A stretch of 37,231 bases of DNA from Fibrobacter sp. (GTDB taxonomy: Bacteria > Fibrobacterota > Fibrobacteria > Fibrobacterales > Fibrobacteraceae), in the NCBI GenBank assembly GCA_017503015.1, contig JAFVTX010000007.1, forward strand, positions 1-37,231. Direction: 5' to 3'. Of this stretch, positions 17,917-27,616 are shown piece after piece (the stretch's first letter is position 1; the number at the start of each line of letters is the position of its first letter). Both the position numbers and the translations under genes were made by a program. The notes below the pieces were generated by a model. It ran no database searches. It was given only the letters and a program-made list of their open reading frames with translations, and was not told the origin of the DNA.

Positions 17917-18900
17917 CTAGCTTTCTTTTTCTGCCTGAATTTTCTGCGATTCCTTCAACACTTCGTCCAACGTGAAATCTTCCTGCGTAAAGAAAAACGT
18001 ATTCTTGCCCAAATCCTTGAGCGAAGCCCCAAAGTGGTAAGCCGTATCGTCTATGAATAGGAATCGGTCGTGCATTCCGTAACTTGGCAAGACTTGCATC
18101 GGACTGTCGGGATATTGTTCGTTGTAAGTGGCTAGGTCCATTTCAAGGACTTTGCTTTTGTCATAGGTGTAGATTGTCACGGAAACGCCTTTTTCCCGCT
18201 TGAGCATCATGGCCAGAGTCTTCTCGGTCACGTACCTGTCGACAAGTACGATTCTTTTCTTTGCCTGACGAATCAGGTCACAGACAAATACATAGGCATC
18301 GAACTCCTGGTTGTTGTAAAATAAACCCTTGGATTTGAGTTCGCCACGGTCCATCGCCTCGAAAAGTTCGTCAAATTTTCGGTCATGGTCAAGCAGATGC
18401 TCGTCATGACCAGTCAAGCGGCAGTCCTGTTCCAAATCCTTTGCTTCCACGTTTGAAAGCCGATTGACGAGGCCTCCGTTACCCATCATAAGGTGACGCA
18501 GTTGCACGAAAGCCCGCATAATGGCGATGTTGACCTTGATTGCAGACTCACTTTTTAGAACCGAAGATAGCATCGCTACGCCTTGTTCGGTGAAAGCTAA
18601 AGAACGGTATTTTGTGTGTTTTCCCTTTAAATTTTGCCCCTTTTTTTCTAAGGTCGCATTTTGCGACCTTAGAAGTTGCGATTCCTCTAAAGAGAGTTGT
18701 ATGCAAAAATCTTCGGGAAAACGCTCAATATTGCGCTTTACCTGCTCATTTATACGCTTCGTTTCCACCCCGTAAAGCGTCGCCAAATCGCGGTCAAGCA
18801 GCACCTGCTTGCCACGAACAACTTGAATCATCTTTCCGATGCCCGACTCCATAAGCGGGTTAGGTGCGATACCATCCGTTTCTTCGGTCTTTCTAGCCAT
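17917..18900 (-). CDS. ORF6N-domain DNA-binding protein with PLD-like C-terminal segment
   Basis: 327 aa. The N-terminal ~120 residues (VVRGKQVLLDRDLATLYG, KRNIERFPEDFCIQL, TEQGVAMLSSVL) match the ORF6N domain of phage antirepressor-like proteins, widespread in bacterial accessory regions. A polar linker follows. The C-terminal part (~190-310) has IVLVDRYVTEKTLAMM and HDRFLFIDD, where His277-x-Arg279-x4-Asp284 resembles a single HKD-like motif of the phospholipase D superfamily, then YHFGASLKDLGK. GGAG stands before the ATG. A role as a DNA-binding regulator or nuclease-linked factor is inference. It lies directly upstream of, and divergent from, the defence-like operon region. Confidence 0.8.
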   Translation of the reverse strand: MARKTEETDGIAPNPLMESGIGKMIQVVRGKQVLLDRDLATLYGVETKRINEQVKRNIERFPEDFCIQLSLEESQLLRSQNATLEKKGQNLKGKHTKYRSLAFTEQGVAMLSSVLKSESAIKVNIAIMRAFVQLRHLMMGNGGLVNRLSNVEAKDLEQDCRLTGHDEHLLDHDRKFDELFEAMDRGELKSKGLFYNNQEFDAYVFVCDLIRQAKKRIVLVDRYVTEKTLAMMLKREKGVSVTIYTYDKSKVLEMDLATYNEQYPDSPMQVLPSYGMHDRFLFIDDTAYHFGASLKDLGKNTFFFTQEDFTLDEVLKESQKIQAEKES

Positions 18901-19124: not shown

Positions 19125-19370
19125 GGGTGAAAATAGAGTTTTTGCTCTTGTTCTCCATCTGGAAACTAGACACTTTCATGAATACGGAGAATAAGGCGAA
19201 CGCTCACGTCTGCGACCGGCTTAGGCCTGCCGCATCGTTTTGGTACATGCATATTTGATAAATCTGCCTGTAGGCAAGCGGCCATTATGGGGCGTGAGTT
19301 GTTTGCGCTTGTTGTATTCGGGCAGTCTAGGCCTCCAGATGATAGGTGCATTCAACTCCACGCCTTTTTT
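19125..19370 (+). ncRNA. Candidate structured RNA, unit 1 (shared leader, terminator-like end)
   Basis: Begins after a promoter-like stretch and contains a ~55-nt leader (from 19144) that recurs at 19430. It ends with GGCGTGAGTTG (19291-19301) pairing, with one bulge, to CAACTCCACGCC (19353-19364), followed by six T. Internal GCCT-GT-AGGC adds structure. A 26-codon reading frame (19178-19258) lies inside. No known RNA family was recognised; the call rests on structure and duplication only. Confidence 0.3.
19178..19258 (+). other. Small reading frame inside unit 1
   Basis: ATG at 19178 opens 26 codons, beginning MNTENKANAHVC and ending FWYMHI. No ribosome-binding site is evident. In the duplicate unit the ATG is ACG and the frame shifts by one base, so a coding role is doubtful. 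Confidence 0.2.
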
Positions 19371-19429: not shown

Positions 19430-19558
19430 GCTCTTGTTCTTCATCTGGAAACTAGACACTTTCACGAATACAAGAATAAGACAATGACTCGCCATCGTCC
19501 GTGGATTGCACGGGCGTAGTGTACCCTGGGCGTGCCGTATACGCCCGGGATTGTTTTG
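19430..19558 (+). ncRNA. Candidate structured RNA, unit 2 (same leader, different body)
   Basis: The leader from 19430 to about 19484 matches unit 1 with two substitutions in the first 42 nt. The body then differs: CCGTG-GATTG-CACGG (19499-19513) and a terminator-like CCTGGGCGT / ACGCCCGGG stem (19525-19549) followed by ATTGTTTTG. An 11-codon frame MTRHRPWIARA lies at 19484-19519. Confidence 0.3.
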
Positions 19559-19646: not shown

Positions 19647-19680
19647 GGCGAGGAGTGAGTCGGCTCCTCGCCGTTCTTTT
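19647..19680 (+). terminator. Strong terminator upstream of the methyltransferase operon
   Basis: GGCGAGGAG (19647-19655) / CTCCTCGCC (19664-19672), 8-nt loop, then TTCTTTTT. It insulates the operon from upstream transcription, so the operon promoter should lie between 19681 and 19757. Confidence 0.75.
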
Positions 19681-19757: not shown

Positions 19758-21113
19758 ATGGTGGCTCAGAATAAAGTCGGCAAAAACGACGAAGGAAAGA
19801 AATCTTTCAAATTCATAGATTTGTTTGCTGGACTGGGTGGTTTTCATCTGGCGTTGTCTTCCATAGGTGGGGAATGTGTTTTTGCTTCTGAATTGAAAGA
19901 AGATCTTCGAAAAATTTATAAACAGAATTTCGGCATGGAAATACAGGGCGATATTACAAAAATCGACCCAAAGAAAGATATTCCTCCACACAACGTATTA
20001 TGCGGTGGCTTTCCCTGTCAACCATTCAGTCAGGCCGGAAAAAGAGAAGGTTTTAATGATGTTCGTGGAACAATGTTTGATTATATCTGCAAGATTATTG
20101 AAGTCCACAAGCCAGAGTATCTTTTTTTAGAAAATGTTGCGAATTTGAAGGGGCATGATAAAGGAAATACCTGGAAAGTTATCCAAGATAAATTGGATAA
20201 TCTTGGATACAATGTGACTGCAGAAATATTATCACCTCATCAGTTTGGCATACCACAGCATAGGAAACGTATATACATCGTTGCACAACGAAAAGATTTT
20301 GGTGATTTTAGTGAATTTTCTTTTCCCAAGCCAACAAATTTGGAATGTGACATTAAAAGTGTAATAGATGAAAGTGATTCAGATGTAACCCTATTGCGAT
20401 ACGACACAAAGAATCAATTAAATGTGTGGCAAGAGTTTCTTGATAAAGCTTCAAGTCGCGGTGGTAAAATACCTGGCTTTCCTATTTGGGCAATGGAGTT
20501 TGGAGCGGATTACGATTTTGAAGATATCGCCCCCGCTTATCAAGAATTAAAAAAACTTGTTGGGAAAAGAGGACGATTGGGGTGTCGGGTTTTTGGAAAA
20601 ACTGTTGCGGACTGCTTGAAACTATTGCCGAATTATGCTCAAACAGCTAAGAATAAAACATTCCCATCATGGAAAATACGATACATAAGCCAGAATCGCG
20701 AGTTTTACGAAAATAATAAGGATTGGTTAAGAGAGTGGATGGAAAAGATTCGATACTTTGATAATAGCCACTTGAAATTAGAGTGGAACTGTGGTAATGT
20801 TGCGCCGATAATTTCGGATAAGATTGTTCAATTTAGAGCGTCTGGCATCCGCATTAAAAATCCCACTTTTTCTCCGGCGTTAAATCTTGTTGGTACGCAA
20901 ATACCGATTTTCTCTTGGGTTGCAATTCCGGGTAAAGATGATTATGGTCGGTATATGTCTGTACAAGAAGCGGCCAAATTGCAAGGGATGCAAAAACTGA
21001 AATTTGGCAACAAAGAATTCGAATTGTCTAAAACTCGAATATACGAAGCTTTGGGCAATGCAGTCAATGTTCAGTTGGTAAAAAAGATTGCAAAGAGGTT
21101 GATAAGACTATGA
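19758..21113 (+). CDS. DNA (cytosine-5)-methyltransferase
   Basis: 451 aa from the ATG at 19758, chosen because GGAG lies just upstream and homology-like sequence starts soon after; a start at 19680 would add 26 unlikely residues. Motif I FIDLFAGLGGF (19-29), motif IV GGFPCQPFSQAG with catalytic Cys87, motif VI ENV (125-127), motif VIII QHRKR (167-171), and motif X EALGNAVN near the C-terminus are all present, so the enzyme should be active. The region between VIII and X (~190-400) is the target-recognition part; the target site cannot be read. It is AT-rich, unlike core genes here. Its stop overlaps the next start by 4 nt (ATGA). Confidence 0.95.
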   Translation: MVAQNKVGKNDEGKKSFKFIDLFAGLGGFHLALSSIGGECVFASELKEDLRKIYKQNFGMEIQGDITKIDPKKDIPPHNVLCGGFPCQPFSQAGKREGFNDVRGTMFDYICKIIEVHKPEYLFLENVANLKGHDKGNTWKVIQDKLDNLGYNVTAEILSPHQFGIPQHRKRIYIVAQRKDFGDFSEFSFPKPTNLECDIKSVIDESDSDVTLLRYDTKNQLNVWQEFLDKASSRGGKIPGFPIWAMEFGADYDFEDIAPAYQELKKLVGKRGRLGCRVFGKTVADCLKLLPNYAQTAKNKTFPSWKIRYISQNREFYENNKDWLREWMEKIRYFDNSHLKLEWNCGNVAPIISDKIVQFRASGIRIKNPTFSPALNLVGTQIPIFSWVAIPGKDDYGRYMSVQEAAKLQGMQKLKFGNKEFELSKTRIYEALGNAVNVQLVKKIAKRLIRL

Positions 21114-22633
21114 TAAAAGAAAAAGTATCCATCGCAACAAAGCCTCTTGTTTATCAAGTTTTCAGGCATATATCAAATAAAGCTCACAATGCTCTTGCAG
21201 AGTATGTTGATAATTCAATATCAAGTTTCGAAAGGCATGCTGATATTTTAAAGCCTTTAAATCCTAATGGAAAACTAAAAGTAGAAATTACAATAACGGA
21301 TGATTATATACGCATAGAAGATAATGCTTTCGGAATAGAAGAAGAAAACTATCAAAGAGCTTTTGAACTTGCAAGAATTCCTTTGGATGCGACAGGGTTA
21401 AACGAATTCGGAATGGGAATGAAAGTATCTTCAATATGGTTGTCAAATCATTGGACTGTAGAATCAAAAGCGTGGGGCGAAGATTTAAAGAAGACTTTCG
21501 TGTTTGATTTAAAAGAGGTGTTGGATGAAGAAAAAACGGCAGTTGATGTAGAGGAAGTGCCTGCAAATGCTGATGAACACTATACAATAATCACGCTGAC
21601 AGATTTATCCCAATTTAAACCGACATCTAGACAAATTTCTGGTATAAAGAAGCATCTAAGCAGCATATATTCACATTTTATTAGGAGTAATGTTGTAGAT
21701 ATTTACGTCAATGGTGAATTGCTCGCTTATCATGAGCCTAAAATTCTTAATGCTCCTCATTATAAAAATGGGGGAGAAGCAATTGAATGGCGATTGAATA
21801 TAGATTATTCATTTCAAGGCGGAAAACAGAAAGTAAAGGGTTTTATTGCGGTCTTGGATCAGATGAGTACATCTGAAAACAACGGATTTCTCCTATTCCG
21901 TCGTGGAAGAACCATTGGAACGAGTTCCGACGAAAAATATCGGCCCAAGGCTCTTTGCGGGGATATTGGCTCGCCGCAATATAAAAGAATTTTCGGCGAA
22001 CTTGAAGTTGAAGGCTTTGATGTAAGTTTTACAAAAAATGCTTTTAATGAAGATGATCAGTTCCAGGCATTTATTGATGAGTTACGTAATGAAATAAAAT
22101 CTGATAAAACTCTTGATATTTTTGGTCAGGCGCAAAATTATAGAAAAGTTGAAGATCCTAAAAAAGCCGAGAAAAAAGCAGTTTCTGCGATGGCTCAGGC
22201 TTTATCTAAGCCAGTTGTGGTTTCTGCCACGGTGCCGCCGACTCCATCAGAAGGGCTGATTGTTGACGAAACTAAAGAAGATGTGCCAAATGAAAAAGTG
22301 GAATTGCTGATAGCACCTGTAAATAAGGTGATGAATATCGGAGAATCTACGTATAGTATTGAAATTCGATTCGAAAAAATTGCAGGGATATCCAAGTTTT
22401 ACTCAGTAGAAAAGTCTGCAGAGAATGATAAAAACTACGTCGTTCGTTTGTTTATGGATAATCCTTTTTTTGAAAGGTATAATGAAATATTAAAGGACGA
22501 AGAATGTACTGGTCCAATGCTCCATTTGGTTCAATCAATTGTTGGAGCAGAATTATTGATGAATGACAGCGGGTACGCTACGTATGCAAAGGCTTTCAGG
22601 AATAAATTGAATAGCCTGATTGGGAGATTCTAA
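21110..22633 (+). CDS. MORC/MutL-type GHKL ATPase of a restriction-like operon
   Basis: 507 aa. Bergerat-fold motifs are clear: N-box ALAEYVDNSIS (Glu31, Asp34, Asn35), G1 as IEDNAFGI (Asp71, Gly75) and G2 as GLNEFGMGMK (96-105). These match the prokaryotic MORC/MutL-like ATPases described in restriction-modification neighbourhoods, rather than MutL mismatch-repair proteins (no endonuclease motif) or histidine kinases. A second domain (~180-330) fits the S5-like transducer position; a linker at ~365-400 leads to a C-terminal ~130-residue domain I do not recognise. It is translationally coupled to the methyltransferase. ATP-driven clamp or DNA-loop activity is inference from the family. Confidence 0.88.
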   Translation: MIKEKVSIATKPLVYQVFRHISNKAHNALAEYVDNSISSFERHADILKPLNPNGKLKVEITITDDYIRIEDNAFGIEEENYQRAFELARIPLDATGLNEFGMGMKVSSIWLSNHWTVESKAWGEDLKKTFVFDLKEVLDEEKTAVDVEEVPANADEHYTIITLTDLSQFKPTSRQISGIKKHLSSIYSHFIRSNVVDIYVNGELLAYHEPKILNAPHYKNGGEAIEWRLNIDYSFQGGKQKVKGFIAVLDQMSTSENNGFLLFRRGRTIGTSSDEKYRPKALCGDIGSPQYKRIFGELEVEGFDVSFTKNAFNEDDQFQAFIDELRNEIKSDKTLDIFGQAQNYRKVEDPKKAEKKAVSAMAQALSKPVVVSATVPPTPSEGLIVDETKEDVPNEKVELLIAPVNKVMNIGESTYSIEIRFEKIAGISKFYSVEKSAENDKNYVVRLFMDNPFFERYNEILKDEECTGPMLHLVQSIVGAELLMNDSGYATYAKAFRNKLNSLIGRF

Positions 22634-22635
22634 AA

Positions 22636-24819
22636 ATGAGTGAAGAATACATTAAGGTCCTATTAGATGATGAAAAGATTTTTTTGACTAAACCCAAGGT
22701 TGGACCGAAAACTATAAGTTTAGTAAACTCTTTCGAGAATATTGACGATGATGGTAAGGCAATCCTTATTTCTGAGGCTCAGGACATTCTTAGCCACTGC
22801 ATTTTTTCTGGGAAGAATGATTGCATTACAAATATCGCTGTTGGTTACGTTCAAAGCGGAAAAACAATGTCGTTTACGGTTTTGACCGCCCTTGCTGCCG
22901 ATAACGGGTTTAAAATGGTTATTTATCTTACGGGAACTAAAACAAACCTGCAAGATCAGACCTACAAAAGATTGTGCTCTGATATCAGAATGATCGAAGA
23001 TAGTAGTGACTATTTTAAAATTATTCCTGACGGTAAGTGTTCTGTTTCTGTAATCAAAGACTATGTCCAAGAAGAAGATTATACTCTTTTGTTGCCTATT
23101 TTAAAACATTACAAGCATATAAATGCGTTGTCTGATGTTTTAAGAAATGTAGAGGTTGAACATCTCTTGGATAAAAAAGCTGTGTTGATTATTGATGACG
23201 AGGCAGACCAATCAAGTTTTAATACATATGCAAGGCAGAATTCGACAAAAGAAGATTGGGAAGACGATGAATACAGTAAAACCTACACTAGTATAAACAA
23301 TTTAAAAAATGCCCTACCTTGCCACTCTTATGTTCAGTATACAGCCACCCCTCAAGCTGCGTTTTTGATTGATAATAATGACATCCTTTCTCCACAATAC
23401 CATACAGTTTTAACGGAAGGGAAAGGATATACTGGAGGAAAATATTTCTTTAAAAGTAATGATCGGCAGTATGTGATAGAAATCCCTGATGACGAAATCT
23501 ATCATAGCAGAAGAAATCCATTGCCTGATAAGCCAGAATCATTTGATAAAGCGTTAATGCAATTTTTTGTGAGTGTTGCAATTGTTGTGAGAATTCAGAA
23601 AAGATTGGATTACTTGTCGATGATGGTTCATATAGATGGTAATACCAAATCAAATGAAAAATTTAAACAATGGACGGACGATACCATTAGTGAATGGATT
23701 CAAATGTTTCGCGATGGACCTTCTGATATTGCGTGGCCGGCATTTCAGTTGAAAATCCGTGCTGCATATGAAGAAATGTCAAAGTATGTCGAAAATAAGC
23801 CTTCTTTTGAAGATGTCTTAGATAAAATGCCCAAAGTATTGAAAAATAGGCAGACCTATTTGATACAGGGAAATTCTAACGAAGAAATTGATTGGAAATC
23901 TTCTTGCGCACATATTCTTGTCGGTGCAGATATGTTGAATCGTGGTTTTACGGTTGAGCATTTGTCAATGACTTATATGCCTAGATCTCCGGTTGGAAGG
24001 GCCACTGCCGACACTATTGAACAGCGTTGTCGATTCTTTGGGTATAAAGAGAAATATTCTGATATTATTCGCATATATCTTTCCCGAAAGAGCATTGGAG
24101 AGTTTAATGCATATGTTGACCATGAAGAGATGCTGAGGACAAATTTAAAGCAATGTAAGACTTTAAAAGAATTTGCAAAACAATACAAAACAATGGTCAT
24201 GAGCCCCTTGTTGAAACCCACGAGAGCAAATATCCTGTCTTCTAGGTTGATACGAAGCAAGATGAATGGGTGGCGGCAACTTCGCTCTTTGTATAAATGT
24301 AATGAAAATAAGGAAAGGTTTGAAACCTTTAGAAATCGCATAGATAATTGGGTATTGGATTTTGACTATAAAAATCCTATGAGAAACCATAATGTTGCGA
24401 AAGTCTCTATTGAAAATTTTATTTCCTTCTTCAAAGGAATTGTTTATTCTGATTTGCCGAATATAGCTCGTAAAATAGCAACAATCCAATACTTAAACTA
24501 TTTGGCGGAAAACGGGAAAATCTCATATGTGAATGTATATGACATTGCTTGCGGCAATACGCGCGAGCGTAAATTAGATGGTGACATCCCGAATAACTTA
24601 CAAGAAGGTCGTGCGGCAAATGGTAGCTACCCTGGCGACAAGGCTGTAAAAACCGATGATACGATTTGTGTTCAATTACATCATATTTTAATTAAGAATA
24701 AAGATATATCATCTGTAAAATACAGAGATGTGACTGACTTGTATAACATTGCAATATATTATCCAGAGAAAATTGGAGAAGATTATATATCGCTCGACGA
24801 AGAAGATGAGGATGCGTAA
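22636..24819 (+). CDS. Z1-domain superfamily II helicase/ATPase
   Basis: 727 aa. Walker A GYVQSGKT (70-77), Walker B VLIIDDEAD (183-191), motif III-like QYTATPQAA (~234-242) and the Z1 signature GADMLNRGFTVEHLS followed by EQRCRFFGYKEKY (~420-465) identify an endonuclease-associated Z1 helicase. In known operons such proteins accompany MORC/MutL ATPases, cytosine methylases and PD-(D/E)XK proteins, presumably translocating on DNA. The C-terminal ~250 residues are helical and charged and end with an acidic tail (SLDEEDEDA). It begins 2 nt after the ATPase stop and is followed after 3 nt by the nuclease-like gene. AT-rich. Confidence 0.9.
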   Translation: MSEEYIKVLLDDEKIFLTKPKVGPKTISLVNSFENIDDDGKAILISEAQDILSHCIFSGKNDCITNIAVGYVQSGKTMSFTVLTALAADNGFKMVIYLTGTKTNLQDQTYKRLCSDIRMIEDSSDYFKIIPDGKCSVSVIKDYVQEEDYTLLLPILKHYKHINALSDVLRNVEVEHLLDKKAVLIIDDEADQSSFNTYARQNSTKEDWEDDEYSKTYTSINNLKNALPCHSYVQYTATPQAAFLIDNNDILSPQYHTVLTEGKGYTGGKYFFKSNDRQYVIEIPDDEIYHSRRNPLPDKPESFDKALMQFFVSVAIVVRIQKRLDYLSMMVHIDGNTKSNEKFKQWTDDTISEWIQMFRDGPSDIAWPAFQLKIRAAYEEMSKYVENKPSFEDVLDKMPKVLKNRQTYLIQGNSNEEIDWKSSCAHILVGADMLNRGFTVEHLSMTYMPRSPVGRATADTIEQRCRFFGYKEKYSDIIRIYLSRKSIGEFNAYVDHEEMLRTNLKQCKTLKEFAKQYKTMVMSPLLKPTRANILSSRLIRSKMNGWRQLRSLYKCNENKERFETFRNRIDNWVLDFDYKNPMRNHNVAKVSIENFISFFKGIVYSDLPNIARKIATIQYLNYLAENGKISYVNVYDIACGNTRERKLDGDIPNNLQEGRAANGSYPGDKAVKTDDTICVQLHHILIKNKDISSVKYRDVTDLYNIAIYYPEKIGEDYISLDEEDEDA

Positions 24820-24822
24820 TTT

Positions 24823-25800
24823 ATGAAATTGGCTAACCTATTCCAAAAATTTGAAGAACTAAGAAACTCTATAGTAGAAGTTGCAGATGCTTATAAGGTA
24901 GCGCCAGTTTCAAAAAATAATGGACATAAATTAGGGTGTTCTGAAAATGGCTCTCCCGTTTTTTTCATTGAATGCTCGGATGCTCCAAATGTAGCAAACA
25001 TACATCTTCGAATTATTGACGTACTTTTTAACCAAAAATGCAATCTTTCTGTAAATAACAAACTGATTGCCGATAAAAAATATTGTATGGTTATAATGAA
25101 GGATTCAGAAGATGATTTAATAAAATATTTTCTTGATGTGATTGCCCTCATTCTAGAACAACTTCCGAAACAACCGACAACGAGGCAGTTGGCAATAGAA
25201 CTCGCTAAAATAACACGTTTGTTTACAAATATCCCGACAATATCTGCCGAAACAATTCAAGGACTGTGGGCAGAAATGCTTCTAATTGAACAATCAAGTA
25301 ATCCTGATTATTTGATAAAGTCTTGGCATATTAGCCCAATGGATAAATACGATTTTAATGATGGTTCCGATAAAATAGAGGTTAAGTCAACAACCAAACA
25401 GATTCGTTCGCATCTGTTCGCTATAGAGCAGTTGAATCCAAATATAAAGTCTCAGTTAATTATAGCCTCGATTCAGATGACAAAAACTGGAGCCGGATGT
25501 TCTTTGTTTGATTTAGAAGAAAAAATCATAAATAAGATAAAAGATAGAGATTCTGCAATCAGATTAAAAGAGGTGATCGTTTCTACGATTGGAACGCATT
25601 TAAGCGAAATTAGCTCCATATGCTATGATTATATGCAATCTGTAGATTCACTTAAATTTTATGATTACAAAGATGTTCCCTCGATTTCGCCGGATTGCAT
25701 TCCACAAGGTGTGTCTAATGTGCATTTTTCAGTAGATTTTTCAAATGTTATAGATGTTGAACGAAATTCGATGAAAGGCTTGCTACATGGGAGTTTGTGA
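24823..25800 (+). CDS. PD-(D/E)XK motif protein (DUF4420 type), probable restriction nuclease
   Basis: 325 aa. GLWAEMLLIE (Glu151), YDFND (Asp177/Asp180) and KIEVKST (Glu186, Lys188) form the E...D...ExK core of a PD-(D/E)XK nuclease, in the arrangement of the DUF4420 family, which is typically next to Z1 helicases and MORC/MutL ATPases. The N-terminal ~130 residues are beta-rich, then helical. It would be the cutting subunit acting on unmodified or aberrantly modified DNA; that is inference from the family. The stop overlaps the region before the next gene, whose likely ATG is 2 nt downstream. Confidence 0.83.
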   Translation: MKLANLFQKFEELRNSIVEVADAYKVAPVSKNNGHKLGCSENGSPVFFIECSDAPNVANIHLRIIDVLFNQKCNLSVNNKLIADKKYCMVIMKDSEDDLIKYFLDVIALILEQLPKQPTTRQLAIELAKITRLFTNIPTISAETIQGLWAEMLLIEQSSNPDYLIKSWHISPMDKYDFNDGSDKIEVKSTTKQIRSHLFAIEQLNPNIKSQLIIASIQMTKTGAGCSLFDLEEKIINKIKDRDSAIRLKEVIVSTIGTHLSEISSICYDYMQSVDSLKFYDYKDVPSISPDCIPQGVSNVHFSVDFSNVIDVERNSMKGLLHGSL

Positions 25801-25802
25801 TT

Positions 25803-26519
25803 ATGACTAAATATCCTAAAAGCAAAGAATTGATTGACATTTTTATATCTGCATTGAACGAAAGTTTTTCGTCTATAGAAAAAACAGAAGTTCTTCGTTT
25901 TGAGTTTAATGGTTTAAAATATGTAGCTTGTTTCAAATGTGTGAGCTATGCTGGAACGCCCTATCCTTTGAATACTACGCGAGCTCAACTTCCTCAGCGA
26001 GAAGAATTTGAAAAAATAGAAGCCGATGAAAGATTTCTGTTTATAGGATATGATGTTGGCAACGATGTTTTTGTTTGTTGGGACCCAATAAAAGCGAAGT
26101 CAAGACTGAACAAAAAAACGTATGTATCGTTTTTCTGTCGACAAAATATTCAAGATTCTGTTACTGCAGGAAATGTCGTTGAGGCTCGCTTGACAAATGG
26201 TGATGTGTATGTACTTTTCAAAAGGTGCGATATTCCGCGATTCTTTGAAATGATTGAAATTCACTTTCCCAATTTACTCGAAGTTGAAAATAACAAGGAT
26301 GAAAGTGACGAAGATGTTTCCAATTCTGAAATTGAAGGCAGGTTAGGAAATGTTAATGATGATGAAATGGTAAAAGCTCTCGTTGATGAAATGCTAGTTG
26401 CACAAAAAAGTCATTTGACAATTGTGTCGGAATGTTCCAATGCTTTTGGATCGGCTTATCCTGGAATGTTGTTTAAGGAATGGAACGATATTGTCAAAAA
26501 GTATTGTTTGTCAAAATAG
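25803..26519 (+). CDS. Unrecognised last gene of the defence-like operon
   Basis: 238 aa from ATG 25803 (GGGAG nine bases upstream); GTG at 25797 overlapping the previous stop is possible. No family was recognised. An N-terminal alpha/beta region (~1-155) has conserved-looking blocks: YPLNTTRAQLPQREEFEKI, FLFIGYDVGNDVFVCWDP and NKKTYVSFFCRQN, which suggest a compact nucleic-acid or modified-base reader fold; that is a guess. An acidic linker (NNKDESDEDVSNSEIE) leads to a ~65-residue helical tail. In MZA-type operons a much larger AIPR protein would be expected; this one lacks AIPR length. AT-rich like the rest of the operon. Confidence 0.75.
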   Translation: MTKYPKSKELIDIFISALNESFSSIEKTEVLRFEFNGLKYVACFKCVSYAGTPYPLNTTRAQLPQREEFEKIEADERFLFIGYDVGNDVFVCWDPIKAKSRLNKKTYVSFFCRQNIQDSVTAGNVVEARLTNGDVYVLFKRCDIPRFFEMIEIHFPNLLEVENNKDESDEDVSNSEIEGRLGNVNDDEMVKALVDEMLVAQKSHLTIVSECSNAFGSAYPGMLFKEWNDIVKKYCLSK

Positions 26520-26639
26520 CATTTGGGTACTGAAGTTCACAAAATTCACTGCATTCTCCTCGACATGAAATCCGTCATGCGGAACTACGCAAACAACCCC
26601 GCTGCGCAAAACGAACTTGCAGAACTAATTCCTCATTAG
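26520..26639 (+). pseudogene. Probable C-terminal gene remnant after the operon
   Basis: Directly after the TAG at 26517-26519, in the same frame, 39 sense codons run to the TAG at 26637-26639. They include KIHCILLDMKSVMRNYAN and NELAELIPH, with GC-richer codons like core genes here rather than the AT-rich operon. It has no start of its own apart from an internal ATG. Best read as the tail of a chromosomal or mobile gene left at the operon edge; the family is unknown. Confidence 0.4.
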
Positions 26640-26666
26640 AAAATTTCTTTTTTTTTCAAAAAAATA

Positions 26667-26698
26667 TTGACTAATATATAGCAAATATGCTATATTTA
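26667..26698 (+). promoter_or_regulatory. Promoter and palindromic operator of the toxin-antitoxin pair
   Basis: TTGACT (26667-26672), 18-nt spacer, then TATATT (26691-26696). The inverted repeat ATATAGCA-AATA-TGCTATAT (26676-26695) fills the spacer and covers most of the -10 box, as expected for autorepression by an antitoxin. The toxin ATG follows only 4 nt after TATATTTA, so the mRNA may be leaderless. Confidence 0.7.
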
Positions 26699-26702
26699 GT
26701 AT

Positions 26703-27125
26703 ATGAAGTTCAAGTTCTTTCCGAATGTGCAATTTTTTGAGACAGAAAAAGCAGAACCCAAAGACGAAGTAGGAGATGTCGGCAAAGAAATAAAGGATTT
26801 GTCCAGGCACCGCCCCGACCTATATCTACGGGTCAAGAGTTTTCTGAAGGTCCTTTCTGCTGTTATGGATTTGTCGCCTTTTTTGCTGAATGAACAAATT
26901 TACAAGTTTCCGAAGGAATATGATGGCTTGTACGAGATGCGAATTCCAAAGCAGGCGAAAGGCGGAGTTTTTAGAATATATTTCTGTACGGCAATAAACG
27001 AAATCAGCACGCTCATTTTGTTATGCGCGGAATTGAAACACAAAAAGGAACCGATGAAACTCGGGACAGCATTTGCAAAACTGAAGCAATACAGAGAACT
27101 TGTCAAACAGGGAGTTATGCAATGA
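26703..27125 (+). CDS. HigB/RelE-like toxin (Gp49-like family)
   Basis: 140 aa. The C-terminal ~90 residues (LYEMRIPKQAKGGVFRIYF, LILLCAELKHKKEP, AFAKLKQYRELVKQG) match the phage-derived Gp49-like/HigB branch of RelE-type toxins, ribosome-dependent mRNA interferases in this family. The N-terminal ~45 residues are an acidic and basic extension. The toxin gene comes first and overlaps the antitoxin start by 4 nt (ATGA), the usual HigBA order. No ribosome-binding site is seen. Two genes of this kind beside a restriction-like operon suggest a stabilisation module or an independent defence element. Confidence 0.85.
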   Translation: MKFKFFPNVQFFETEKAEPKDEVGDVGKEIKDLSRHRPDLYLRVKSFLKVLSAVMDLSPFLLNEQIYKFPKEYDGLYEMRIPKQAKGGVFRIYFCTAINEISTLILLCAELKHKKEPMKLGTAFAKLKQYRELVKQGVMQ

Positions 27126-27616
27126 AAAAGAATCAAGTCATCGATTTTATGTCTTCGCTCGAAAAAGAAGACGATGGTCTGGATTTGTACTCCAAGACAT
27201 ACGAGGCGCTGTCGGCCTTCCTGACGGATTTTGATTTCCTGAAAGATTCCTTGGGGCTCACGCAGCAAGATGTCGCCGACAAGATGGGCACGACGCAAAG
27301 CGCTATCTCGCGTATTGCATCCTTGAAAACGAACCCTTCGTACAAGCAGTTGCTGAAGATGTCGGAGGCCGTCGGTGGCGAACTGTACATAACTCCAATG
27401 AAGAGCATGACCGTCCAAGTTCCTTACGACTTGCAAGAAACAGTACGAAAGTTGGCGACCGAGGCCGGCTCAAGTCCTAACGATTTTCTTACAAGCATTC
27501 TGCGCAACGCAATAGAACTAGAACGCGCGAACTACATGAACAAAACGCTGGCCTTGAACTGCGTTGGCGAACGCAAGGTCGCATATAGGGCAAAAAAGAA
27601 GAACTCGCGGGGTTGA
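27122..27616 (+). CDS. XRE-family antitoxin (HigA-like)
   Basis: 164 aa from the ATG at 27122; a longer frame opening at 27023 overlaps the toxin and is rejected. Helix-turn-helix at about residues 40-70: LGLTQQDVADKMGTTQSAISRI. The C-terminal part (VQVPYDLQETVRKLATEAGSSPNDFLTSILRNAIE) looks like a ribbon-helix-helix or Arc-like segment, an unusual second DNA-binding-like module for a HigA protein. It should bind the palindrome at 26676-26695 and neutralise the toxin; that is inference from the gene order. Confidence 0.85.
   Translation: MKKNQVIDFMSSLEKEDDGLDLYSKTYEALSAFLTDFDFLKDSLGLTQQDVADKMGTTQSAISRIASLKTNPSYKQLLKMSEAVGGELYITPMKSMTVQVPYDLQETVRKLATEAGSSPNDFLTSILRNAIELERANYMNKTLALNCVGERKVAYRAKKKNSRG

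Follow-up and report, generated by a model that had tools for sequence, protein, structure and literature searches.

Operons of the third MORC class described by Iyer in 2008 combine a MORC or paraMORC ATPase with a distinct superfamily 2 (SF2) helicase carrying the motif DThhQXuRhFG and a restriction endonuclease (RE)-fold protein with an E-D-ExK active site, frequently together with cytosine methylases (PMC2292703). No experimental report on this MORC-Z1 class, predicted in 2008, was found in the searchable literature. In CglI and NgoAVII, which consist of a methylase (M), a PLD-B3 restriction subunit (R) and a DEAD-Z1 protein (N), the Z1 proteins were found by experiment to be site-dependent ATPases needed for cleavage (PMC4267653). 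LlaJI has two Dcm methylases, a McrB-like R1 subunit and a PD-(D/E)XK R2 subunit; R1 is the sole specificity determinant, and its authors assign DNA binding to the unique N-terminal half (PMC1459862). Here we describe a five-gene operon at positions 19758-26519 of a 37,231-nucleotide stretch of Fibrobacter sp. DNA (contig JAFVTX010000007.1), the whole of which is called the window below. The operon probably encodes an ATP-dependent cytosine restriction-modification (RM) system of the MORC-Z1 class, working in a CglI/NgoAVII-like manner with the protein MTaX1 (Methylase-associated X1) as its reader. It is ordinary in kind, and the new clue is MTaX1 as the likely specificity subunit.

The five genes are all on the + strand, with spacings of -4 (dcm/ATPase), +2 (ATPase/Z1), +3 (Z1/DUF4420) and -4 nt (DUF4420/fifth gene). 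Open reading frame coordinates and Pfam matches confirmed this layout, which the first-pass annotation had already given. The first gene (19758..21113) encodes a DNA cytosine-5 methyltransferase of 451 aa (Dcm/M.), the modification subunit (Pfam PF00145 DNA_methylase, 3.5e-77; TIGR00675 dcm, 1.2e-75). A longer form starting with TTG at 19680 was set aside, and the ATG at 19758 was preferred because GGAG lies upstream of it. The second gene (21110..22633) encodes a MORC-type GHKL (MutL-like) ATPase of 507 aa with an S5 domain (Pfam HATPase_c_3, 3.3e-12), and the third (22636..24819) an SF2 helicase/translocase of 727 aa with a Z1 domain (Pfam Z1, 8.6e-36; PADLOC Helicase_II, 4.9e-48). The fourth product (24823..25800, 325 aa) is a PD-(D/E)XK nuclease of the DUF4420/NRE type, in which the nuclease fold forms the C-terminal half (Pfam DUF4420, 5.4e-30). 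The fifth gene (25797..26519) encodes a protein of 240 aa that had been thought to belong to no known family; it matched the Pfam family MTaX1 (PF20296) at E=1.9e-20, scoring 73.9 bits against a curated cut-off of 25, and is a proposed reader of a DNA site or of its methylation. The AT-richness noticed earlier was also borne out, since GC content was 0.36 in the operon, 0.52 to its left and 0.57 to its right.

The active-site motifs of the first four genes, previously judged intact, proved near-invariant in 69-83 homologues. In Dcm, the PCQP Cys, the ENV Glu and QxRxR were invariant in 76 homologues, and in the ATPase E31/N35, D71/G75, G101/G103 and K105 were invariant in 83. The MORC S5 motif GhXhhpXXRhl was strict in 76 of 83 homologues, and the window sequence, GFLLFRRGRTI, is off by one hydrophobic position. 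The Z1 helicase kept Walker A (GKT), Walker B (DDEAD), R436 and DTxxQRxRFFG, including Q463 and R466, in all 80 homologues compared, the motif reading DTIEQRCRFFG in the window. In the DUF4420 protein, E151, D177 and K188 were conserved, and position 186 was Glu in 63/69 homologues and Asp in the remainder. Its AlphaFold model (pLDDT 93) best matched NhoI, DpnI, Hjc and EcoRV in VIA-align, restriction nucleases being among them. A PDB sequence search with MTaX1, DUF4420, Z1 and the MORC ATPase gave nothing usable.

To collect relatives, an alignment of the ATPase was scanned against 84,980 species, each represented by a single genome, which gave 271 relatives, and the best 80 were fetched. These came mostly from Bacteroidota, and also from Acidobacteria, Planctomycetes, Chloroflexi and others. 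Among the 83 loci counted, which include the window and two plasmids and were gathered almost wholly via the ATPase, all have Z1 in the operon, 79 have dcm and 70 have the nuclease, some gaps being contig ends. The genes overlap or nearly overlap across loci, and chance co-occurrence was ruled out by these counts. The dcm-MORC-Z1-nuclease quartet fits the third class of MORC operon; the first-pass annotation had already pointed to the restriction-modification neighbourhoods of Iyer, Abhiman and Aravind. It has all four core genes, a GHKL ATPase with the MORC S5 motif, an SF2 helicase with the Z1 motif DTxxQxxRFFG, an E-D-ExK nuclease of the RE fold, and lateral mobility. The window differs from that class by MTaX1 as an added fifth subunit, which the text of PMC2292703 does not mention by name; a figure of that paper has domains X1-X3. 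Within the best 80 of the 271 relatives, the closest was a Paludibacteraceae genome from horse faeces, with identities of 76% (dcm), 76% (ATPase), 74% (Z1), 55% (nuclease) and 68% (MTaX1). Across 79 further genomes of the genus the ATPase had no close relative, only weak partial matches at 27-29% identity, which points to a probable horizontal acquisition of the operon. The MTaX1 protein had no match on plasmids in a tblastn search, and a Z1 scan of viral contigs found no relatives. In two of the loci, Dcm carries an extra N-terminal stretch of ~170 residues (L016 8113-10002 and L021 8149-10002).

The history of the site supports an RM role. A sister genome (G016), whose neighbouring M23 peptidase protein is 97% identical, carries at the identical site, between the ORF6N and peptidase genes, a cassette of Dcm, McrB and RE_LlaJI (L136:10178-13989; RE_LlaJI gene L136:12640-13989). 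Homology to the sister genome on the left extends to window position 19794, ~12 codons into dcm, and the first codons of the window dcm therefore look inherited from an earlier methylase gene; the N-terminus of this Dcm differs from those of its relatives. On the right, a scrap of 70 nt (26551..26620, +) is 88.6% identical to L136:13901-13970 and is what remains, from the 3' end, of the earlier occupant's LlaJI-type restriction gene. From the shared site, the left homology and this scrap, it appears that one cytosine RM cassette probably replaced another here. Such an RM-for-RM exchange argues that the operon is itself an RM-type defence, a conclusion we hold with high confidence.

The fifth gene is tied to the quartet in one part of the Z1 tree, which was built from 99 sequences by a quick method with SH-aLRT as its sole support. 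The window's Z1 subclade has 34 rows (SH-aLRT 100), 31 of them labelled with MTaX1; the L060 locus has two MTaX1 proteins by Pfam, and in L015 and L023 the contig stops short of where the gene would lie. The protein was linked to the operon in 32/32 assessable loci of the subclade, answering the concern, raised with the first-pass annotation, that it might not accompany such operons in other genomes. Its usual place is 3' of the nuclease gene, overlapping it by 4 nt or lying a few bases apart. Quartets outside this subclade essentially lack MTaX1 and are followed by genes of different kinds: a RhuM-family protein, an AspBHI/Mrr-like nuclease (L046) or Vsr (L053). MTaX1 also occurs joined to other restriction enzymes. 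In L001 it is fused to HNH_2 beside an N6/N4 methylase; in L002 it is the N-terminal portion of a full-length match to PADLOC REase_II (type II), beside Dcm; and in L060 it lies N-terminal to a LlaJI-type McrB AAA domain followed by the RE_LlaJI nuclease. The last of these loci (L060 8983-17748, Pontibacter) holds two MTaX1 proteins, one between the dcm and MORC genes and the other being this fusion, located after the quartet. Aravind's group predicts that MTaX1 discriminates modified DNA (PMC10853773).

The predicted structure of MTaX1 (AlphaFold, pLDDT 90) resembled PD-(D/E)XK enzymes of several families. The leading VIA-align matches were RecU (Z 8.0), I-Ssp6803I (7.8), a Hjc-type resolvase (7.6), SPARDA (6.8), SwaI (5.0) and DpnI (4.4). 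The best match covered 121 residues at 3.3 A, a middling Z for which DUF4420, a true PD-(D/E)XK protein, served as yardstick and reached 7.2. Foldseek returned no match under 1e-3 for either the MTaX1 or the DUF4420 model, and the VIA-align matches, obtained as a second look, were read with caution. A topology-based placement of the PD...(D/E)XK motif on MTaX1 gives Pro-Phe/Leu ... Tyr/Phe-x-Lys, with Lys47 alone kept, and in the model both catalytic acids appear to be replaced. No conserved acidic set fits the motif; across 29 sequences, only positions 72, 86, 90 and 136 were mostly acidic. We infer that MTaX1 is built like a nuclease, is no longer catalytic and acts as a reader. That it is the reader of this RM system is somewhat better supported than the contrary. 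A broader proposal, which we put forward tentatively and hold to be less likely, is that in MTaX1 a retired PD-(D/E)XK nuclease domain has turned into a portable reader of DNA sites or methylation, which lends specificity to several restriction systems that otherwise have nothing in common (MORC-Z1, LlaJI/McrBC-like, and type II enzymes with HNH or of other sorts).

Taken as a whole, the operon would work as follows. Dcm would methylate its target sequence in host DNA and so protect it. MTaX1 would read the Dcm site or its methylation state and hold the restriction complex on an unmethylated target. The Z1 SF2 motor would then translocate along the DNA, the MORC ATPase may close as a clamp or loop the DNA (looping was proposed for it by Iyer 2008, PMC2292703), and the DUF4420 PD-(D/E)XK subunit would cut. 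Restriction itself and the order of events are predicted from the gene set, and the details of that order are held less firmly than the reader role of MTaX1. This resembles the CglI/NgoAVII scheme of a reader, a nuclease, a Z1 motor and Dcm, but with reader and nuclease on separate proteins and a MORC ATPase in addition. Both have Dcm, a Z1 helicase and a separate nuclease subunit, and ATP dependence would be shared as well. In contrast to CglI and NgoAVII, the window's nuclease is a DUF4420 PD-(D/E)XK protein rather than PLD, there is no B3 domain, no PLD-B3 restriction subunit is encoded among the operon's genes, and its Z1 falls outside the CglI-type rows. LlaJI likewise separates the site-reading subunit from the PD-(D/E)XK subunit, and it is tied to the window by the cassette in the sister genome and by the R1-type fusion of MTaX1 in L060, but it has a McrB-type AAA subunit where the window has Z1 and MORC. 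C. diphtheriae BH8 gained Dcm, Z1 and DUF4420 as an RM island (PMC5379612); this island differs by an EcoRII-like enzyme, and neither MORC nor MTaX1 is named there.

Several points weigh against this scheme. The fold of MTaX1 rests on a model, with a VIA Z of 8 at most and a Foldseek E of 0.0045 at best. Among the 99 tree rows, 47 are quartets labelled without MTaX1, nearly all of them in the other subclade, and reading there would therefore fall to another protein or to the nuclease's own N-terminal domain. Over 25 loci, divergence of the Dcm target-recognition region went along with that of MTaX1 (partial r 0.36) and of the nuclease (0.29). Within the two subclades the MTaX1 signal vanished or reversed; the correlation was thus suggestive overall but not robust, and it was not used as evidence. 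The literature search gave no experimental work on the operon or on other quartets.

The operon had also been read as related to MZA, the system of MzaB (MutL), MzaC (Z1), MzaD (DUF4420) and MzaE (AIPR), and possibly a distinct subtype, with AIPR missing. The resemblance stood: ATPase, Z1 and nuclease are homologous to those of MZA and in the same order, and NCBIfam MzaB, MzaC and MzaD gave matches, although far under their cut-offs (21.7/850, 110/1500 and 35.1/420 bits). The absence of AIPR from the operon also held, as in all 83 quartet loci. Its loss found no support. In the Z1 tree the quartet rows form one 80-row group (SH-aLRT 100), and the AIPR-type/MZA group (99) and CglI-type Z1 both lie outside it. 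AIPR was scored by Pfam, since a custom profile missed the AIPR of the window's own genome, and none was found anywhere in 67 of the 78 quartet-bearing genomes; a quartet derived from MZA by losing AIPR is therefore not supported. An AIPR acting in trans was rejected on the same count, together with the fact that the only AIPR gene of the window's genome (C31, L105; 630 aa) sits on a different contig, where its neighbour is a leucine-rich-repeat gene and no Z1 adjoins it. MZA-like loci with AIPR are present in the window's own genus (among L106-L111), so both kinds coexist there. MZA-like loci of the window's genus and order (L106-L111) even have dcm near AIPR, which would suit a divergent, abortive-infection-type MZA with MTaX1 as the effector in AIPR's place. 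We consider such a system improbable: identities to L107 are low (ATPase 27%, Z1 28%, nuclease 26%), Dcm is near-fixed in the quartet, and MTaX1, which the window's operon has and MZA does not, occurs with other RM enzymes and has shown no link to AIPR.

MTaX1 might instead be a second active nuclease, or a toxin, since its predicted fold matches PD-(D/E)XK nucleases and the equivalent gene slot in other subclades is sometimes taken by a nuclease or a RhuM-family protein. The misfit of its four mostly acidic positions to PD...(D/E)XK, and the separate nuclease or motor domains to which it is joined in L001, L002 and L060, make this unlikely, though slightly less so than a divergent MZA. Least probable of all is modification-dependent (type IV-like) restriction or epigenetic regulation, in which the complex would attack or remodel methylated DNA and dcm would have another role. 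The discrimination of modified DNA predicted for MTaX1 (PMC10853773) and the thought that eukaryotic MORC ATPases respond to methylated DNA and chromatin (PMC2292703) are consistent with it, but a catalytically intact Dcm co-encoded in 79/83 loci argues for self-protection rather than self-attack, and the cassette was apparently exchanged with one of LlaJI type, and such systems restrict DNA that is unmethylated (PMC1459862).

An RM system with MTaX1 as reader thus remains the best explanation of the whole. The quartet emerges as a compact, widespread unit distinct from MZA, and the window supplies a complete five-gene version for cloning. Eukaryotic MORCs are thought to derive from such systems, and a bacterial set that can be reconstituted would reveal the job of the ATPase.

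Other features were observed around the operon and its relatives. The chromosome near it otherwise codes housekeeping and plant-cell-wall-degrading genes. At window 17917-18900 (-) lies an ORF6N + PLD-like protein of the PADLOC candidate defence family PDC-S05 (1.2e-107), to which two copies in L136 match; RhuM relatives of the same PADLOC group stand directly after the quartet in L036, L039, L041, L043, L045 and L049. Other-subclade quartets (L064 6670-8665, L069, L077 and similar) adjoin a gene pair (~384 + 277 aa) with weak similarity to PD-Lambda-5_A/PDC-M38A, which may be a reader or an effector there. Directly 3' of the operon, window 26703-27616 holds a small Gp49/HigB-like gene and then an HTH (HigA-like) gene, a probable toxin-antitoxin pair that is absent from the sister genome's site; GC content is 43% over window 26621-27600. 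Upstream of dcm, a pair of 42-bp direct repeats (95%) occupies window 19144-19185 and 19430-19471, with two weaker copies and a 21-nt match elsewhere in the genome.

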